A DNA stretch of 64,000 nt from Sialis fuliginosa (taxonomy: Eukaryota > Arthropoda > Insecta > Megaloptera > Sialidae), in NCBI GenBank assembly GCA_961205875.1, contig OY540815.1:17483638-17547637 (forward strand), given 5' to 3'. The translations under genes were made by a program, and so were the position numbers. The notes below the pieces were generated by a model. It ran no database searches and was not told the DNA's origin. It worked only from the letters and a program-made list of their open reading frames with translations. Shown piece by piece: positions 5,401-46,545 of the stretch (the stretch's first letter is position 1; the number at the start of each line of letters is the position of its first letter).

Positions 5401-6539
5401 TTATAACAATGGCAGAGTGCATCAAAAATCATTATATTCCTGTTTATCTAATACATTGTACCTTAGCAAAAGAAATAAATAATTATACCCTGAGTTACAG
5501 TTCTTCGACTTACGTCACTTTGCTTTTACGTACATTTTCAATTACCAACATCCTCGAAGAATGATATCTATCGATCTTGTATTTATAATATTGTGCCTGA
5601 CCAAAGAAAGTTTAATACTAGAGTATATGTAACCAAAAGATTTTGAAACTTTTCATAAGTTTTAACGATTTATAGTTCCAGAATACTATGTCGCTCAAAA
5701 TAAGCTAATTTTGTTTAACCACTTGGTATGTATATGAATATTCGATCACAGTAATATATACAATAAAATATGCGTTTTAAATATTTAGAATGTAATTATT
5801 TACATCTAAAATATTGACGTTTCATTAAAAATATTTTACACTTTACCTCTATTACATTGTTCCCTTAAAAATAATATGATTTATTAAAATCTCAATCATC
5901 AAGCTAACGTATAAATTGTTTCTTATTTAATCAGTCTATTAAAAACATCATTCTATCTAAATATCAGACAAATTAATTATCAAATAATAGTACAATTACA
6001 CATAGGCACCAAATATTTATATCTTTAGTCTATATTAAATGCCTTTTTTTAACGTTCAAAATATTTTGTATTTTTGATATTTAAAAATGTATTTGAAGCT
6101 TATTTTTTTATATTTTTTAATTTACGGTTGTTTTTCAATAATACACAGTTAAAATTTTTTACAAATTTTATAACCAAGTGATTTTATTTGTAATAGTTAA
6201 TTAATTAAGTAATAATAATAATCACTATCCCATCTCAGATTTATAATCAGTAAGATATTAATTTAAAATTCAACACATATGAGCACGGCCAATCAGACAA
6301 GCTTGTGAGTGGGGGAAGTGTACAATTCATTGATCAACTTCTACTTGTGAGCTTGTTGAATCAATCTCGTTCATGTGAGTTGAACTTATAAGTAGTCTGG
6401 GATATTTTTTTAAACGTTAATATAAAATTGAATGTGTTTTTTTTTTAAACTGTAGTAAAAATATTTAACTACGCTGCCAAGAGAATTAATTAAATCAAAA
6501 CATAATCTTAAAAAGAGTTAAAATATTTACTATTTTCTT

Positions 6540-6570
6540 TTTATTAAAACTACCAAAAGTAATATTTATT
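6540..6570 (-). terminator. Candidate polyadenylation signals after exon D
   Basis: On the minus strand AATAAA occurs at 6565-6570 and 6540-6545, about 140-170 bp after the exon D stop. Another AATAAA at 6697-6702 is only 6 bp past the stop and less likely to be used. Such hexamers are frequent by chance in DNA this AT-rich, so the assignment is weak. Confidence 0.3.
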
Positions 6571-6707
6571 TCTAATCAAATATATCGTACTTATAAAATT
6601 AATAGTTTGTAAGTAAACTAAATAAGAATGAGCAAAAGAATATTAACTACATTTTTGTATTAAAAATATTATCACGAATATATAATTCTAAATATTTTTA
6701 TTAAAAA

Positions 6708-7240
6708 TCAGTCAGTATCACTAGCTGTTTGAAGTGCATTACTAATCTGGTTTTCCATATCTTTTGGAGGATCTAAATCTGATATATTTACACGTGAATA
6801 TATTTTTTTAGAATTTTTTGTTACTCCTTTAATCTTTTTACAAGTCCATTGAACAAAAAGTACCAAACACATAATTAAAAATAAGGCAATTACAATTAGA
6901 AGGACTAAGTAAGTTCTGTAGAACCATTTAACATTATTTAAGTTTGACGCCAAAGACGAGGGGTAACAATACGTATCAGTAGTGGTAACGTTTGTTAAAA
7001 TTGCATCTCCATAACATTTTGTACATTCATAGTCATTTGGACCATTGCATTGCAAACATGAGTAATGGCACTGTTGACATATTTGTTTTTTTGCTGTTTT
7101 TATTTTTTCATCGCGAGGACGAACTCTTGTGTTGTTATTCGATGGTTTTTTCGAGTTAGTTGATAACTGAACAGGATAATATTGTGGTGGACACGATGAT
7201 ACACATTTTCCTTGATGTAAATATGTCCCTTTGGTGCATT
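6708..7240 (-). CDS. Furin alternative terminal exon D: Cys-rich region, transmembrane helix, cytoplasmic tail
   Basis: This exon has 533 bp: two bases of a split codon, 176 codons and a TGA stop. Entered after exon A it reads ECTKGTYLHQGKCVSSCPPQ, then KKQICQQCHYSCLQCNGPND and YECTKCYGDA, which aligns with the Cys-rich region of vertebrate furin (shared LHQ, C-CPP and C-CH-SC-C-GP pattern). A transmembrane helix follows (TYLVLLIVIALFLIMCLVLF, flanked by W/Y and a basic TCKKIK). The tail of about 45 residues contains YSRV, a YXX-hydrophobic motif, followed by acidic SDLD and ASDTD patches like the trans-Golgi sorting tail of furins. There are ten Cys in the Cys-rich part. The acceptor is TTATTTTATAG|AATGC. 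The intron to exon A is 5562 bp and contains exons B and C. Confidence 0.9.
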
Positions 7241-10200
7241 CTATAAAATAAATAATTTATTAATTTCTAAAATGTTAAAAAGCCGCTAACCACGGTGTAG
7301 ACAAAATATATAATTTTTTAATACTGATATTTTATTTTAATACAATTATAGACAAACAGATTAATAATAAATATAAAAACACATAAAACAAAATTTACAG
7401 ACTATAACATAAAATGAAATAACAATATCAGTATTAAAAATTAGTTCATCAAATATATGACATCATGCATTAGGATATCCTGGACTTAAATTACTACAAA
7501 AAATGATTTCAATAAATAATACAATATTAGTACATGCAATATTAATTTTTTATTCAAGTGTCCACTATTGCATTAAGCTTACTATATACATATACGTTAA
7601 TAGCGATAACTACAAAATACCATGCAAGTAGACACGTATTAAAAACAAAAAAGCGAGTAAAGTGAGATTAAAACAAGCACTCACCATGGTGAAGTGAGGC
7701 ACAAGCGAAGTTCAAGACCAAGATATCCTGTATGGTCGCCTGTCAACTTGTAACACTTTGGAAGTAAATTGTATTGAAAGCGTACAGAGATGTACTCAGT
7801 CATTAATGTTTCAGGGTAGTTCGTAGAAAGTTGAACTGAGTTTAAATATATTTTTAATTTGTTCAAGACTCATTACTTCATATTGATTTTGTTTAAACGT
7901 TTTTTATAATTCCTAATAATTGTTAAGAAATTAAACAACAAATGTATAATTTTATAATAATAAGTTTTAACAGTTCATCTTTCTGTTAGCACAGTCCGTC
8001 TTTGTGATTTGTTGCATGTGCAGGAATATTGCATGCAATATTGTCAGAACTAAACTTTGTTGATTTCCTTGTATATGAACCATGCAACACATAGTGAAAA
8101 ATAATAATATCTTAAACAAATTTTAGTTCAAACATATTGTACAAAAAATCTACGATATATTAAAACAATTCACAATTTATTTTTTCAATCAAGTCTTCAT
8201 TTTTATACAAATATTGTGCATACATTTAAGAATTCTATTTATATAACTAGTTTGAATATTTATATTTATATATTTATATATAATTATTTTTTGCACCAGA
8301 AAAATTGGTTACAGTCAATAATTCTGTTTATTGATATTAAAAACATTTAAAATATCTTGCAAATAATGAAAGAGTTTACTCCCTACAATATGTTTAACTC
8401 AATAATAAATAACAGCCTTAAAAGGAAATTTTCAATACTTAAAACTAAATTTATAATTAATAAATTATACAACCTTTCAATGTTAGTAAAGGACATATTA
8501 TATTGAAATGTTAGTAGCAGAACTAAAGCTGTGTTTAATTTAATTGTAAGTTTAATAATAATATACTTTATTATTTAGCAACGGTAAACTTTGAGGAATA
8601 ATTTTAGTTTATAAAGTTTTTTTTTCTAATGTAACTTTGGTTTTAGGAATGTTAAAATAAATTTAAATTAATTAATAAAAGATATAAGGGAGGCAAGTGT
8701 ATAGGTACATTAGGGTGTGTCAAAAAAATTAACATTCGCTCTTGTTATGAAATAAGTTAGTTTAAGATCTAAAATAAATCCTTGCTGAAGGATTACCCTG
8801 TAGTTCAATTTTAAGAGGTGCCGCAAAGGGGGTCCCATTTCCAATTTAAATAACATGGGGAAATTATTCTTTAGTACTAAAGTTGGTATTACTAATTCAT
8901 GATAACTGTTGAAATTTTTTAAGGACATCATTTTGTAGAAGATAAAATTTTCTACAAAGGTGTCTACAAAGTCATGACCATCAATTCAAGTATCAAAAGT
9001 TACAGGTATTCTAAGTGATTTATTTATTAAAATGAACATCTAAAAGACTTTCACAACTAAACTATTGTTTTTATAAAAATAAGTTAAATGTTAATTTTAC
9101 GGGAACTTTAATTCTCTAATAAGATTAATAACATCAAATAAATTTTAAAAATGCAATATAGAATTTAATTGCAATTTACCATACTGCTTGTAACTCGTTG
9201 TAAAGGATACATACACTACTATGTACCCACCAAAAAAAGCCCCCTATCCAATTTTTTTGATTCTAAGATGAACTTTTTTCTCATATAAAGGTCTCTTCAA
9301 AATCAATATACTTATTCATGATTAAAAGCTATAGATTCTTTTTTAATTTAAATATTATTTATATGTAAAAAAATTGCCTCTTAGAATTGAAGAAATACAG
9401 TAGGTATATGCATTTTTACATTTAGAAAGTTTTTAATGTTCTTATTTTAGTTCTGCCACCAAGCATAATGATTTTTTATTGGACTGTAACAAAAATAACA
9501 TTGACACCATGATCTGAATTCATTTGTTAACCCTTAATTATTTAAAAGTTTTTTATGGGTTAAAAAACAAATTTTCAGAAAAAAAAAATGTTAACACATA
9601 AATTTTTATTTACAATGAATTAAGAAAGTTTATTTAAATAAATATCAGAAAATTAAAATTTTTGATAGTTATAATGTGATAAAAAAAAGCTAATTAATTA
9701 TAAGAATTTAGTTCTTAATTCATTATAAATAATTAAATGCACACCACCATGAAATGAATGATGTATTTTAAAATGTGTTTTAAAGTAACTTATAATTAAA
9801 CATTAAATAATTTAACAGTGATGTATAAAGCAAAATATAATATAACGAATTTTGACAATAACATTAAAAAAATAAGAGACAATCAAAGTAAAATTTTGAG
9901 CTTTAACAAATAAGACATGGTTTGAATTCTGAGGGTTGATGCCGTTACATTACAGTGCTGTCTTATTTGCAAGGTTTTACTGATAAAAATGAAAAATTAT
10001 ATTTTTTATTTATGTATTAATTAAATTGTAATAAGCAATTAAATAATTGAATAACAATTAATAATATAATAAAAATAATTTATAAATATGTCCGTATACT
10101 AAATATCGGAAGAAAACTCCTGCATATTTGTTCCCGTATATGTAAATTTTATTCTAATCAGATATACCCTTCCCTATTTGAACACAAAACAACATCGTCG

Positions 10201-11868
10201 TTTTCTAGAACTAATAATAGGTTTTATTGTTTTTACATCATTATAATAAAAGGAACTATGGAAATAAATTTTTCAAAATAAATAATTAGGCAAATTGTTA
10301 ATTAGAAATAGGGTCCTTTAACCTAATACAGACACACCTCGTTTTTACTTTCTCACTTTTTACTGCTATTTGGGTCACCGTGCGTGAGAAAAAAAGTAAA
10401 TCAAATTAAATCTAAAAACTGAAAAAATTGAGAGCTAATTAGATATAAGTAGATCTAAATGTATTTACTATTATGATAGATCTGATCTGTTTTTTCTCCA
10501 GTGTTTCTCAAGTTTTACCAACCAAATGAAATTTTTTGACGTGAATAAAATAAATAAATAAATATGACAGTTATTGGAAATAAATTGAATTTTTTTCCCA
10601 TATTGTTATTATGTAGATAGAAAAATTGTCAGGGCCTGATAGACCCTGGTGTGTCAGTTCAGGGTGAAGTGATATATTGAAATAAGATTTTAAAATATTT
10701 TTTCTCTTTAAATTTCTATGGGTTCTTGGTCATACCTTTACACAATTTTGTTACTCATTGCAATGGACATAAAAAATTAGTTAATGATATAATCAAGAAA
10801 TGGAATTATTTGACCCTATTTTCTAATTAAATAAATAAAAATTAGTTCATAGGAACATTGAAAACAAAAATAATATTCTAATACAAAAATTCGATTCCAG
10901 CTGAAAGCTATTCAACAGAGTTAAGCTATCAACGAAATTATAGTATATTGTAATTTATAGTTGGCTTACAATATATATACACAATCACAGACACCCGTAT
11001 TATCAAAATGTAACTTAAATTATAAACGATATAAATATCCATTGAACATAATATACATCTTGTCCTACCGATTATTTATCAGTCGAGAAAGTTTTGTAAC
11101 ATAATATTCAATTTATAGAAATAAGTAAAAAAGTAAGGAACTATAATACATATATTAAGAATAAAATATAAGTACAGTTTTGATATTATATTTCCTTTAC
11201 TAGGAAATAATGTACTCAAACAAAATTAAAGGTTTAAAAAATTAAAACATATCATTTTATGTTAGATTATTTTTAAATCTTCAAATAGTAAATCACAATT
11301 TTACTTATTTTTTATAAATATTAGCTATCGTTTTTGAGAACAGATGGCAGTGTTTACTCATTACAAATTATATTCGTATAATTTTTATTTATGTTATATT
11401 TAAAATCTCGACTTTTATATTTAATAATTCTAAATCTAAATTCCATTTAACGGTAGGTACATATTCTTGATAATACAAAATTTTGTTTATTTTATGTATA
11501 TATTTATATTTATTATATTATAATATTAGATATATTTAAATGTCAGTATTTATTAAACAACAAAAAACAACATTAATGCAATGTTCAATAACTTTTTATA
11601 ATTACCTACTTAGAAAATGTTTTATTTAAAAACTCAACTAATGAATTAGAATTTAATACACAATTAATTTAGAAAAATAACGTAATAGCTAGAAATGTTA
11701 AGAAAGATTAACTAAACAATTAATATATGACTAGAACAAAACAAATTCTAAAATTTAGATAAAACTGGAATAAAAATGGGAACGTATATGTACTTTTCAT
11801 ACATAAGTGTAAATGATTCAATTCATTTACTGACATTTAATTTATCTTTCACATTAAATTAAAAATTG
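7241..11868. other. Intron between exon D and the exon C/B/A cluster
   Basis: This is intronic for the A-D isoform and 3' flank for the C isoform. It is very AT-rich. The only splice-like signal I noted is a strong donor CATG|GTGAGTGC with its exon-side base at 7684 (treated as a finding). An open stretch on minus at 8710-8931 has no recognisable homology. I see no other exon or clear mobile element. Confidence 0.5.
11621..11626 (-). terminator. Candidate polyadenylation signal after exon C
   Basis: AATAAA on the minus strand lies about 245 bp past the exon C stop. An ATTAAA variant lies closer (11836-11841). If exon C is a true terminal exon, a signal is required before exon D, but base composition alone makes these motifs common. 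Confidence 0.25.
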
Positions 11869-12384
11869 TTACGCTATAAGATTTAATTCCATCGGTACTG
11901 TATAACTGAGAGATTTATAACTAACTACAGAAGAAAAAAGAGTATTTTTCTTAGGATTAGAAGAATTATTAGATATAATATTTTTAGACAAATAAGTACT
12001 ATAATTAATTGAAAAATGGTTATATATGATTAAGTAACAAGCATTACATCTATCTAAACAACAATCTTTACATGATAATTTTATATTTCGTTCATCAAGT
12101 CTTGCTCTGGCTTTATCGTACTTAAGTTTTGGTTTATTCGTAATCCCAATCAAATCACATGCATTTGTATGAGTCAATTTCACGTCACGTTTCTGATTAA
12201 ATTTGTTCTCAAATATTTTAATAATATTGTACAAACTTTCACAAACTGAATGACCATATAAAAAGAAAAGAAAAATTGTTACCAGACCTAAACATGTTTG
12301 GCCGTCATTACGAGAGCACGCTGAATTTGTCATGTCATCTGTGGTTGTTCGATGTACCTCTACATGGTTAGTTTCATCACGCAC
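11869..12384 (-). CDS. Furin alternative terminal exon C: transmembrane C-terminus without Cys-rich repeats
   Basis: This exon has 516 bp, 171 residues plus a TAA stop, entered in phase 0 after CCACAG. It encodes a polar start (VRDETNHVEVHRTTTDDMTN), one hydrophobic segment around CLGLVTIFLFFLYGHSVC suited to span the membrane, and a tail of about 120 residues. The tail has a basic stretch (KLKYDKARARLDERNIKL), a Cys cluster (CKDCCLDRCNAC) and a CYLIIY motif that fits YXX-hydrophobic sorting signals. I recognise no domain in the tail. A true exon is favoured over a chance ORF by the pyrimidine-rich acceptor TTTTAAAACAG|GTGCG, the agreement of phase with exon B, and the membrane segment expected for furins. 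Confidence 0.78.
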   Translation of the reverse strand: MRDETNHVEVHRTTTDDMTNSACSRNDGQTCLGLVTIFLFFLYGHSVCESLYNIIKIFENKFNQKRDVKLTHTNACDLIGITNKPKLKYDKARARLDERNIKLSCKDCCLDRCNACYLIIYNHFSINYSTYLSKNIISNNSSNPKKNTLFSSVVSYKSLSYTVPMELNLIA

Positions 12385-12463
12385 CTGTTTTAAAACAAAA
12401 TAGAATTTAGATTATTTTCTAAGGGGTGTATTTCAAAATGAAAATAACGAAAAATTGTAATAC

Positions 12464-12621
12464 CTGTGGTTCCTCTCGCCACTGGTCGCTGGATGATGCA
12501 TCAATTGAATTATGTTCATAGTCATTTTGTGCTGTAAGTGTAGTTTTACTTTCTATTTCATCTTCTCCAGGAAGAGTTGTTGTGCCATACAGAACCAAAT
12601 TCCATTCGTGTAAATCAGCAT
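12464..12621 (-). CDS. Furin alternative exon B: second version of the P-domain end
   Basis: This exon has 158 bp: two bases then 52 codons, leaving in phase 0. It begins ADLHEWNLVLYGTTTLPGED, a clear parallel to LQNWSLILYGTSEPS at the start of exon A and to the LREWSLIFYGT strand of fly furins. Joined directly to 13637 it gives EGRTLNADLHEWNLVLYG, one residue shorter than the exon A form. The remainder is acidic and polar (DEIESKTTLTAQNDYEHNS, SSSDQWREEPQ). The acceptor is TTGTATAACAG|ATGCTG and the donor is CCACAG|GTATTAC. It feeds exon C 79 bp downstream, also in phase 0. Confidence 0.86.
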
Positions 12622-12802
12622 CTGTTATACAAAAGAAAAGAAATTAAACTGGTGCTTAAGAGTTAAATAAATACACCAATAACTAACAAACAAAAAATAA
12701 AATATTACAAAAATAATATCTGGAAAAAAATAAAACATAAAAATCACTAGCTGAAAAAATAAAGGAAAACGACAGCATGCTATGAGATTTGTTAGTAAGT
12801 AC

Positions 12803-13549
12803 CGTTGATAGTGGTTGCATGTTCAGTTGGTTTTTCTCGTTGAACATTAGCAGCTTTAGTTGAAATAGGAGCAGGTGTTTTAAGGTTATCAGGAGTTATA
12901 TTTAAACTACCACGTATTTCACCAGATTCATGAGTATATTTTTTTCCTTTTCTATTAGGTCCATCAGTGTCTCTACTTGTTTCTGAATTTTTTGGACTTG
13001 CTCTTCCGTTATCCGATATTATTCCATAATCTGGATTAAACTGAGAAACTGGATAGTTTTCATTCATAATGTCTGCACTTTCTGATTTTGGATATAGCGC
13101 AGGATACACATGTTGCGCTTTAGGATACTGCTGGAATATCGTTGGTAGTTTATAACTGGACACAGTTGTAACAAGAACTCCAGTATTTTTAACAGTCTTC
13201 TGATTTCCTTTCTTAGTTTTAGAGTATCGTATAAAGTTTCTTGGATTATCGGTCGTAGGATCTGAACCAGGTTTATATATTTTTGGTTTAGAAGATATAC
13301 CCTTTAGTATAGTTTCTGGACGGACAGTAACTTTATTTTTCTGATTTTTATTCTTTGGATTTTTAGTCTTCTTCGGATTTGCATAAGGTGGTTTACCTAT
13401 CGTTTTATTTTTACCTTTTCCTTGTTTAGACTGTGTTGTGTTAGTACGTGATGGAACGTAAGGATTAGGTAATGAATAATAAATATTTTTATCAGACGGT
13501 TCACTTGTTCCATATAAAATAAGTGACCAGTTTTGAAGAGTTGCTCGAT
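12803..13549 (-). CDS. Furin alternative exon A: end of P domain plus long basic linker
   Basis: This exon has 747 bp: two bases finish the Asn codon, then 248 codons, then one base (G). It is a symmetric 1-1 exon divisible by three, so it can be skipped without a frameshift. It begins NRATLQNWSLILYGTSEPSD, the terminal strand of the P domain, with the same spacing from the EGR motif as in other insect furins. The rest is low-complexity and polar, rich in Lys, Asn, Pro and Thr (for example NPKKTKNPKNKNQKNK and DGPNRKGKKYTHESG), with several possible N-glycosylation sites (NTT, NKT, NIT). I see no recognisable fold in it; it is probably an extended stalk. The donor AACG|GTACTTAC can join exon D (AA TGC, giving Glu-Cys) or exon B (AT GCT, giving Asp-Ala) in frame. 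Confidence 0.88.
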
Positions 13550-13636
13550 CTAATGAAAAAGCAATTAGAATGTTAATAGCTGATGGTTTTAATTTATTGT
13601 TAATGAAATTATACTAAACTTTACATGTATACTTAC

Positions 13637-13929
13637 TCAGTGTTCTTCCTTCATTATGAATTTCTAGTTTCCATTCACCGAAAGGCTGCTCTCCCCATGT
13701 ATGAACAGACATAAAAGGCCATAACATGAAACCTTGTCTGGAAAAATCATGAGACCGATGTGCTAGTAGAGTTGATCTCGTTCCAGCCGGTGAAGTTAAA
13801 TTTATTTCCAAATCACCACGTCTAAACGTAGCAAGACTTATCTTAGCTTGCAAATGTTCTAAGTAATTCACACCAGGACAATCTTTGACAACTAAACTAA
13901 ACTTCTTACGACTTTTTGCTGGAATTGTT
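13637..13929 (-). CDS. Furin P-domain exon (last constitutive exon)
   Basis: This exon has 293 bp: one base completing the Pro codon, 97 codons, and a final A that begins a split codon (phase 1). It encodes most of the P (homo B) domain: KDCPGVNYLEHLQAKISL, FRRGDLEINLTSPAGTRSTL, HRSHDFSRQGFMLWPFMSVH and TWGEQPFGEWKLEIHNEGRT. The conserved RGD tripeptide is present. It stops at EGRTL, so the last strand of the P domain must come from the next exon. Two downstream exons (13549 and 12621) both begin with AT and both restore Asn at the junction, which is the basis for the proposed alternative splicing. The donor is CTGA|GTAAGTA. Confidence 0.95.
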
Positions 13930-13995
13930 CTAAAAATAAATTAAATTTAAGTAGTATATTGTTGATCTGTCGGTATTAATATGATAAATACTTAC

Positions 13996-14135
13996 GGATC
14001 TAAGATTTGAGCTGAGACTTCACACTTATGTTGATCAGGAACGGTTTTCCATGTTCTTGCAAGTCGAACCATAGCTGATGCGTCCATTAAACCATAACCA
14101 AAAGAATGACTGACATTTCTACCAACACCGTTAAC
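13996..14135 (-). CDS. Furin exon, catalytic domain to P-domain junction
   Basis: This exon has 140 bp: 46 codons plus two bases of a split Pro codon. It encodes VNGVGRNVSHSFGYGLMDAS followed by AMVRLARTWKTVPDQHKCEV and SAQILD. The SHSFGYGLMDA motif closes the catalytic domain, and the WKTVP stretch begins the P domain. The acceptor is TTATTATAG|GTTAACGG and the donor is GATCC|GTAAGTA. The introns on either side are only 90 and 66 bp, in strong contrast to the 14.5 kb intron further 5'. Confidence 0.94.
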
Positions 14136-14225
14136 CTATAATAAGGCACTTCATTAGTTAGCAATATGTAATACACTTCATTGAACATTTCTGCAGGAAT
14201 GTATTAACTAGAATGACAATCATAC

Positions 14226-14411
14226 CTGCCAATCGTTGGCATTTAAATTAGCAGGACGTGCCGTTCTGACAACAATATGCTGCATATCTCTCCATGTAAG
14301 ATTAGGATTTGATTCTAAAGCTAAAGCACAAATACCAGCTGCTAAAGGAGCTGATGCGGAAGTTCCTGTATGACTTGAAGTACATGAATGATGCAAATCT
14401 GTTGTTATAAC
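14226..14411 (-). CDS. Furin exon with the catalytic Ser
   Basis: This exon has 186 bp, 62 codons, phase 0 at both ends. It encodes [20 protein letters not shown] with the nucleophile Ser in [11 protein letters not shown] (visible residue 244), 73 residues after the oxyanion Asn as in human furin. It then encodes [20 protein letters not shown] and [13 protein letters not shown], the end of the catalytic domain. NLT is a possible N-glycosylation site. The acceptor is TTTCTAG|GTTATAAC and the donor is TGGCAG|GTATG. The triad is therefore complete, and nothing in the visible sequence suggests an inactive enzyme. Confidence 0.95.
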
Positions 14412-14502
14412 CTAGAAAATGATATTATGTAACATAACCTCATTAAATCTAATCTAACCTAAAACATTTATAAAACTGAAAAGTTATGTATAATTAAAGT
14501 AC

Positions 14503-14712
14503 CTGTTTTTCTCCTAACGAACCACTACTATAGGTTGTGGCTAATGTTGAACTACAGGCTTCAGAGTACCAAGGCACATGACCGCTTTCCGTTGCACTGG
14601 ATATGGATAATGTCCATATAGAATTTGTATATCCATCACAGTTACAATTATCATGGTCACGTCCACCATTTCCAGACGCCCATACAAATATTGACCCTTT
14701 TCCACCACGCCC
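14503..14712 (-). CDS. Furin exon with the oxyanion-hole Asn
   Basis: This exon has 210 bp, exactly 70 codons, phase 0 at both ends. It opens with [20 protein letters not shown]; the Asn of ASGNGGR (visible residue 171) is the oxyanion-hole Asn, 101 residues after the catalytic His as in human furin. It continues with [20 protein letters not shown] and [19 protein letters not shown], which contain the conserved Cys residues of the domain, and ends GSLGEKQ. The acceptor is ATTTCCAG|GGGCG and the donor is AAACAG|GTACTT, which is weaker than its neighbours. Confidence 0.95.
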
Positions 14713-15103
14713 CTGGAAATGTAATAGATGGATATTATCAAATAATAACTACAATAATTTGAAGAAGAGTATGAAAGTTGCTAATTTGTCAGTTACAGTA
14801 GGTTAAAACATACATGATGATGGAGAGAATTGCCTAATTTAATCAAAGTAGCATAGATAGAGTCTGCAAGATCCTGTATTGTAGGAGAGACCAACAACAT
14901 AGGGTTGAATTTAGTTAGATATTTCTTGAAAGAGGGGCTCAAAGATATTTTTCAGGGAGACGTGGGAGGGGGGATTATAGTTATATGCCACTGTCATAGA
15001 ATAATAAACATAGCCACTGTTTGATAGACACAGAGGAGGAAATATTTCTTGCAAGATCTTTCAGATATTGCCTGAATTCACAAAAAAAAGGTGATTGAAA
15101 AAC

Positions 15104-17008: not shown

Positions 17009-17147
17009 TTCAAATGGGATAAAATGGGATTAAAAAATGACTGATATATGAGTACTTATAAAGGCTTAGTTTATAAGTACAAAAATATATCGACAAAAAT
17101 CAATTTATTCGGATAAAGTTCGGCTATTTATACGTCGATATACTTAC

Positions 17148-17313
17148 CGCCCACATTAGCACCGAACGCGACGCCCACAGCGCATATCGTATTGTTGGCG
17201 GTAGCAGCGACTTCCCCGGCACATCTGGTGCCGTGTCGATTAGAGTCGATGATGTCGTATCTCGGCATAGGATCTTCGTCGTGGTTGTTGACGTCGTAAG
17301 ACGCTAAAGGATC
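17148..17313 (-). CDS. Furin exon with the catalytic His
   Basis: This exon has 166 bp, entering in phase 0 and leaving one base (G) of a split Gly codon. It encodes [20 protein letters not shown], then the catalytic His in [18 protein letters not shown] (visible residue 70), and ends at GANVG. The acceptor is TTCCAG|GATCC and the donor is GGCG|GTAAGTA. Spacing from the catalytic Asp is 41 residues, equal to human furin Asp153-His194. The exon is very CpG-rich: I count about 20 CpG in 166 bp, compared with about 7 in 293 bp in the P-domain exon. A C11 tract (G11 on plus, 17371-17381) lies 58 bases before the acceptor. Confidence 0.94.
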
Positions 17314-17370
17314 CTGGAACAGATAAATAACACTGTCACCCACAAAAGAGTTTTCTTAGAGAGTAAAATT

Positions 17371-33762: not shown

Positions 33763-34459
33763 TGTCGATATTTGTATGACGAGTTGAAGTTGACTGCAGG
33801 AAATTTCACTAAAAAATTTCGATTTTTTGATTTCATTAAAAGTATGTTTATTATATAGAAAATGACGTGAAAAGTTGTTTGTTTCAAACCGCAGGTCTGT
33901 ATCTCAAACCGTTCTCGAGATATAGCCTCTCAAAGTTTTAGTTTTTTCAAATTTTTTGAGAAAAAAGGCCATAACTTTTGAACGCGTGGTCGGAATTGAT
34001 TTTAGTTGACGGATTTGGAATCAGCGTGTCAAAATCTATATAATGACATGTATAATACCTTAAAACTCGGAAAAAAAAATTTTCGCGAAAAATCGAAAAA
34101 ATTTAAAGGGGTATACCTTAAAAAAATGTCGATTTTTGACCAATTTTTTTTTGTCGTATTTTAAAGTATTACACATGTCATTATATAGATTTTGACACGC
34201 TGATTTCAAATCCGTCAACTAAAATCAATTCCGACCACGCGTTCAAAAGTTATGGCCTTTTTTCTCCAAAAATTTGAAAAAACTAAAACTTTGAGAGGCT
34301 ATATCTCGAGAACGGTTTGAGATACTGGCCTGCGGTTTGAAACAAACAACTTTTCACGCCATTTTCTATACAATAAACATACTTTTAATGAAATCAATAA
34401 TCGAAATTTTTTAGTGAAATTTCCTGCAGTGAACTTCAACTCGTCATACAAATATCGAC
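33763..34459. mobile_element. ~700 bp foldback element with ~300 bp arms
   Basis: The sequence starts GTCGATATTTGTATGACGAG and ends with its reverse complement. The arms 33763-34063 and 34158-34459 match at about 95% by eye across motifs such as GAACGCGTGGTCGGAATTGA and CTCGAGATATAGCCTCTCAA. The loop is about 95 bp of A/T-rich sequence. Transcription through it would give a long double-stranded RNA. Confidence 0.8.
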
Positions 34460-44808: not shown

Positions 44809-45540
44809 GAATTCTTTGTAAAATACATTTCATATTTTATATAAAGTATATAGTATATGAAACATTCTATAATTTACAAGTAAGAAAATGACTTACATAG
44901 CTTAATATTTATAACAATTTCTATTTTCAGTTTTTATCTCATACCACTGCGTTATGACAATAATGTAAAAAACAAAGCCAAGCTTCTATTATACCCTTTA
45001 AAGCTCCTCCTACACACAGGACATGCACATAATATACATTTTCAATTTGCATTACGGCAATATGGTTGTAACAAGTCATACAGATGATAGATGGCAGCAC
45101 ATGTTGCGGACATGCGACAATGATAATGCAGATGGCCACATTATCGATACAGTTGCACCAGCAATGATTGGGATTTGTATTTAATGCACCCATTGTTTAT
45201 GTTCTGTATCGAATAGAATAGGTGTAAAGCTTATTGCTAGGTAAATCGATTGTCGAATAATATATTAGATGGAAATTAGGCTTGAATTGCGAACTTAAAA
45301 ATATGTTCTTTATGTAACATATACAATATACATGGTATTAAACGAAGTCCCTTGCCGCATCTCTCTATCTGTGCACGATTTTCTCAGTAACTACGAACAG
45401 ATTTTATTCTAGTTTTCACTAATGGATATAGTGTTTCACGAGGAAGGTTTAGATGTATAATTTTTGGATATTTTCAATTTTGTATAAATTTGTGGACATT
45501 TTGAGAGCTGCGTAAATAGTTAAAGATTAGTGAAAACAAT

Positions 45541-45908
45541 GGGAGCGTTCACGTCTGACCAAAAAACGGAACAACAAGCTTTGATTGGTTGATTCATGGA
45601 ATTTCTGGTGGAATGTACAAGAAATTAAAAGAATGTCATTTTTTAAGCGTGTAAGGAAGTGAGAAAGAAGTAACCAGAAAGAGATAGAAACTAGTGACAA
45701 GGCTAATCAAAGAACTTTTATGTTCACATCATGTTGAGCGTTTCTGCCAGAACTCTAGTTTCTATCTCTTTCTGGTTACTTCTTTCTCACTTCCTTACAC
45801 GTTTAAAAAATGACATTCTTTTAATTTCTGGTACATTCCACCAGAAATTCCATGAATCAACCAATCAAAGCTCGTTGTTCTGTTTTTTGGTCAGACGTGA
45901 ACGCTCCC
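45541..45908. mobile_element. 368 bp foldback MITE
   Basis: It starts GGGAGCGTTCACGTCTGACC and ends with the reverse complement. The arms are about 150 bp and highly similar (GATTGGTTGATTCATGGAAT, GAGAAAGAAGTAACCAGAAA and their inverted copies). The centre is about 65 bp. Confidence 0.8.
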
Positions 45909-46545
45909 AATGTTCAATAGGTTTATTACGGATTTTTATATCCCCGGGTAACACAGGGTCCAATGCGCTAGTGTTGATATAAAAATATAAACTATATTTT
46001 CATTAAATGATATATCTATTTTATAATGGTACTATTTAACTTCGAAAATATTATATTTAAGAAAGAAAATATGTATCAGCTTTAATAGCTCTATATATTT
46101 ATTGAGATTGCTGAGATGAAGAATGTTCATTTTTACCAAGAGCAATTATTTTTATCTTAGAATTTATTGTATACAATATAATTTAAGTAAGACAATACCA
46201 AACTAAAACAGGGGGTAGGCGGCCATTTATAACGTAGATGTTTTACTTCAGGATAAATGTGACAGGTCAAGGATGAAGAAAGTGATATACTGTGCAATAA
46301 TATAGAGAAAACATATAACATTTTTTCCAATAAACAGTTTAATATTTTTCAATTTCGAAAGCAGACGTAATATATGAAAAATTCTGACACTTCGCATGCT
46401 TGAATCGAGTGTGTAGCGCTACTGCAATAGAATTTTATTTGTATATTATATTGGTTGTTATTTCAGATGACTGCTTATGTACGAAATAAAAATAGAATTT
46501 GTATGTTTATAAAAAACATGTATATAATTTTTTTTGCGTTTTTTT

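Follow-up and report, generated by a model that had tools for sequence, protein, structure and literature searches.

The sequence supports two alternative exons, A and B, that each carry the last P-domain strand in a furin-type protease gene on the minus strand of the window (the whole stretch of 64,000 nucleotides analysed here, from the 392 Mb genome of Sialis fuliginosa). We suggest, as the probable reading, that this furin-1-type gene can end in either of two C-terminal modules: exon A would lead to a cysteine-rich membrane tail and exon B to the tail of exon C. The furin-1-type label and the convertase names of the other loci are presumed from resemblance.

Exons at the end of the P domain

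The P domain of the gene (PF01483 match at 13644-13862) adjoins the S8 catalytic domain, as is the case in furin-type proprotein convertases. The P-domain exon alone, scanned as 13637-13928, covered positions 1-72 of the Pfam P_proprotein profile (72/86, 85.5 bits), and its donor reads TGA|GTAAGT. Joined to exon A it covered 86/86 positions with 96.6 bits (a gain of 11.1 bits) and joined to exon B 85/86 positions with 95.9 bits (a gain of 10.4 bits), the P domain being completed with its last strand in both cases. A join skipping both exons covered 74/86 positions with 85.1 bits. Both completed chains aligned to human furin PDB chains through LYGT.

AG acceptors precede exons A and B, and both exons yield EGRTL-N at the phase-1 junction, after which exon A starts with NRATLQNWSLILYGT and exon B with NADLHEWNLVLYGT. 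The original prediction that both exons encode the last P-domain strand was borne out by the completion of P_proprotein and by the strand scan described below; the common phase-1 junction after EGRTL, the Asn restored by both exons and their positions were likewise recovered. It had also been proposed that the last strand is one residue shorter in B. B does have one residue fewer than A in this part, but the residue is missing from the loop preceding the strand (EGRTLNRATLQNW in B versus EGRTLNADLHEW in A).

Table 1. Features of the furin-type gene in the window (phases refer to the proposed splice junctions).
Feature	Position	Strand	Phase	Content
Peptidase S8, further stretch of the same gene	17146-17316	-		PF00082 match
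Peptidase S8 catalytic stretch	14091..14411	-		PF00082 match
P-domain exon	13637..13929	-	1 out, after EGRTL	P domain without its last strand
Exon A	12803..13549	-	1 in	Strand LQNWSLILYGT and a Lys/Thr/Pro/Asn-rich linker
Exon A, out-phase	12803	-	1 out, if GT at 12802-12801 serves as donor	
Exon B	12464..12621	-	1 in, 0 out	Strand LHEWNLVLYGT and a short linker
Exon C	11869..12384	-	0 in	Membrane segment, cysteine-containing tail, stop TAA
Cysteine-rich exon (CRR)	6708..7240	-	1 in	Cysteine-rich part, transmembrane segment, stop TGA

For the strand scan, AG sites with 20 or more open phase-1 codons downstream were taken from both strands of the window (n = 1,465). The last strand from human furin and from two further convertases of this genome served as templates, with A and B excluded. 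Exon B scored 34.7 and exon A 34.0, against a mean of 0.6 (SD 4.8) over all 1,465 sites; the best plus-strand site scored 15.3 (n = 731). The third high-ranking AG on the minus strand lay six bases inside exon A. The next distinct minus-strand site scored 16.7 (n = 734), and a third strand copy in the window was rejected on this difference.

Given the base composition, the 251 open codons of exon A, ending at the TAA at 12794-12792, would arise by chance with a probability of ~2e-10, and the 171 open codons of exon C with ~2e-7. Exon B is open for just 52 codons (~0.01), and its case therefore rests on the strand match and on exon C. A search for further copies in the genome, in which the best three candidates for A and the best two for B with C were scored, listed only their own gene at E<=10. 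No relatives were found in viral_contigs; in genome_contigs there was one bacterial match (L012), which was left unused.

In a second furin-like gene of the same genome (L009), the P domain was modelled with eight strands, the last of which comprises residues 129-141 (ILKKWQLIFYGTA). This model represents a gene other than that of the window and was built from a two-sequence alignment, with a mean pLDDT of 65.1. By alignment to it, the junction of the window gene would fall in the loop that leads into the last strand.

Tails and reading frames

The two strand-carrying exons differ in the tails that go with them. A brings a long Lys/Thr/Pro/Asn-rich linker and would be followed by a cysteine-rich part with a strong transmembrane segment; the linker of B is short, and the tail beyond it would be a different one, with a weaker hydrophobic segment. 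The best 19-residue hydropathy was 3.62 in CRR, 1.79 in exon C (171 residues) and 0.52 in exon A, which is without a transmembrane segment. Exon C had no Pfam match at E<=1. CRR combines a cysteine-rich frame with its hydrophobic segment, and its Furin-like_2 matches of 14.1 and 20.2 bits were below the 28-bit cut-off. The cysteine-rich region seems to be without its first part, for which no convincing exon was found between exon A and 7240. The long intron before CRR also holds an open stretch of 62 codons (7869-7684, minus strand) ending at a donor-like GTGAGT. Poly(A)-like hexamers follow the stop of exon C, and AATAAA follows the stop of CRR.

Eight combinations of these exons were tested for frame, P denoting the P-domain exon. 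P-A-CRR, P-B-C, P-A-B-C and P-CRR, the last without the strand, were in frame, and P-C, P-A-C, P-B-CRR and P-A-B-CRR were out of frame. Of the eight, P-A-CRR and P-B-C alone combine a single strand with a proper end. The exon that supplies the strand would thus also fix the tail.

The arrangement can be understood from the position of the donor at 13637, which would lie within the loop preceding the last P-domain strand. With a donor inside the P domain, each module must bring its own copy of the strand. From exon A the chain would then continue at 7240 into the cysteine-rich tail with its membrane anchor, and from exon B into exon C and the other membrane tail. The strands of A and B would be structurally equivalent, and the enzyme could accept one tail or the other and stay intact. 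We infer this equivalence, and that the switch serves to exchange the tail, because the P-domain scores were near-equal, the tails were linked to the choice of strand and the residue missing from B lay in the loop. Such a switch would alter the linker, the cysteine-rich region and the tail rather than the catalytic core, and would therefore probably affect location and trafficking. On this reading both splice forms are presumably made, with the donor of A at 12803.

Alternative readings and the end of exon A

It had originally been suggested that the strand swap could tune the enzyme itself, for instance its stability or its response to Ca2+ or pH. The strands differ at positions 2, 3, 5 and 7 of 11, the other seven being identical, and the preceding loop differs by one residue; the P domain is moreover described as essential for activity in the available part of PMC3014772. 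However, the profile scores of the two joins were near-equal, and the choice of exon is tied to different tails, which are the larger difference. Four other convertase strands likewise vary at all four differing positions, but this argues little against tuning because four of the remaining seven positions vary as well (8/11 in all). The loop in which B lacks a residue also differs in length at L009, as judged by eye. Tuning by the strand is thus unlikely, although it is compatible with a choice of tail; the odds of the two overlap because both can coexist.

A rather improbable case is that only one module is used, the second being a relic in decay or in rare use. Against it stand the small chances calculated above for the open frames of A and C, and the P-domain pattern that both strands retain.

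Where exon A ends bears on the next two alternatives. Donor sites were scored with an approximate matrix. The GT at 12802-12801, which would place the donor of A at 12803, scored a modest 0.56, compared with 1.07 for the donor of the P-domain exon, 0.48 for that of exon B and a 90th percentile of 0.11 (3,381 GT sites). Three other phase-1 GTs in A scored higher, at 13415 (1.98), 12923 (1.76) and 13397 (1.33). If A ended solely at 13415, 207 further open codons would follow (chance ~1e-8), and if it ended at 12923, 43 would follow (chance 0.02), which argues that most of A is coding. Judged from its sequence, the exon may end at 12923, at 12803 or at the stop at 12794-12792. Right after the proposed donor, 12802-12751 on the minus strand contains TACTAAC, followed by a T-rich tract with TTTTTTCAG at its end. 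The segment looks like a 52-base intron with its branch site and acceptor, beyond which a frame reads into a hydrophobic stretch; it is possibly a chance product of T-rich DNA.

Were A a terminal exon ending NGTY-stop, the product would be a soluble enzyme without a membrane anchor. The open frame does continue beyond the proposed donor (GGT ACT TAC) to the TAA, but none of 13 types of poly(A)-like hexamer was found between the A stop and exon B. This absence is mild evidence for an internal A and weak by itself: all 13 types were also absent from 247/500 shuffles of the T-rich stretch between the A stop and B, and from 34/374 tiles of the window. A stronger reason to regard A as internal is that a terminal A would leave CRR without an in-frame, strand-carrying partner among the exons found and tested. 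We consider a soluble form of this kind quite improbable.

A single chain including both A and B (P-A-B-C), with a second, spare strand, is very improbable. The original prediction that A is 1-1 symmetric and can join B held in that P-A-B-C is in frame, with 570 residues from the P-domain exon on and two LYGT strands, and A sits directly upstream of B; the symmetry itself hinges on the modest GT at 12802-12801. A spare strand would have no evident place in the eight-strand fold modelled for L009. That such a chain is made and that its second strand competes for the place in the P domain, strand exchange switching fold or activity, is the most improbable reading of all.

Relation to other convertases and known furin isoforms

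The other convertase genes were read around three loci, in a scan to which A, B and the strands of L009 and L010 also contributed as templates, and no duplicated strand was found there: each stretch held a single strong copy. The best and next strand scores were 40.2 and 13.8 in the 5.5 kb read at L009, 34.0 and 20.4 in the 8 kb at L010, and 34.8 and 18.2 in the 29 kb covering L011, L013 and L014. The P domain of L009 lies in one exon. In L010 and L011/L013 an intron appears to lie a short way upstream of the last strand; neither position matches that of the window gene.

Exons A and B resemble mutually exclusive exon pairs, of which a transcript contains one or the other but neither both nor none, in being neighbours with a homologous start and open to the same donor. 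Their likeness covers only the 11-residue strand (19/33 nucleotides identical, and 26/90 in the stretch that follows), and, as a difference from such pairs, each exon would lead to its own 3′ end. Their exclusivity is not forced by frame, since A and B together stay in frame. A search at 11800-13700 for pairing arms that might favour exclusive splicing gave a raw count of four pairs (14-23 nt, 75-93% complementary), and Rfam gave no match at gathering score in 6000-15000.

Elsewhere in the window, two inverted repeats were observed. The first (33812-34091 / 34133-34412) has arms of 280 nt that are 92% complementary and 41 nt apart, and is perhaps a fold-back element. The second (45535-45694 / 45755-45914) has 160 nt arms, 97% complementary and 60 nt apart.

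Alternative splicing of Dfur1 in Drosophila reportedly gives rise to Dfurin1, Dfurin1-CRR and Dfurin1-X. One of these fly proteins is named for a cysteine-rich region, and the window gene would resemble Dfur1 as a single furin gene with several splice products. It would also resemble bli-4 of C. elegans, whose isoforms, according to the available parts of PMC10538796 and PMC12266778, have the peptidase part in common, differ in their 3′ exons and in some cases include a cysteine-rich domain; in the window gene, too, alternative 3′ exons with and without such a domain would follow a common peptidase part. As far as their available text goes, the two sources disagree on whether the cysteine-rich isoforms of bli-4 are c and d or d alone. 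The worm gene has up to 10 isoforms with 11 exons in common (PMC12266778, available part), compared with two modules in the window gene. By these likenesses the window gene fits the kind of furin tail-swapping reported for fly and worm. In the available parts of the literature surveyed, no mention was found of a furin gene that carries a P-domain strand in duplicate.

Among such furins, a splice point within the P domain may be a general feature. We suggest that a protease could swap its tail despite a splice point inside a folded domain if each tail supplies the missing strand. The arrangement would allow the effects of the P-domain strand to be separated from those of the tail, and it gives reason to ask whether the P domain, and not the tail alone, differs among the furin isoforms of fly and worm.
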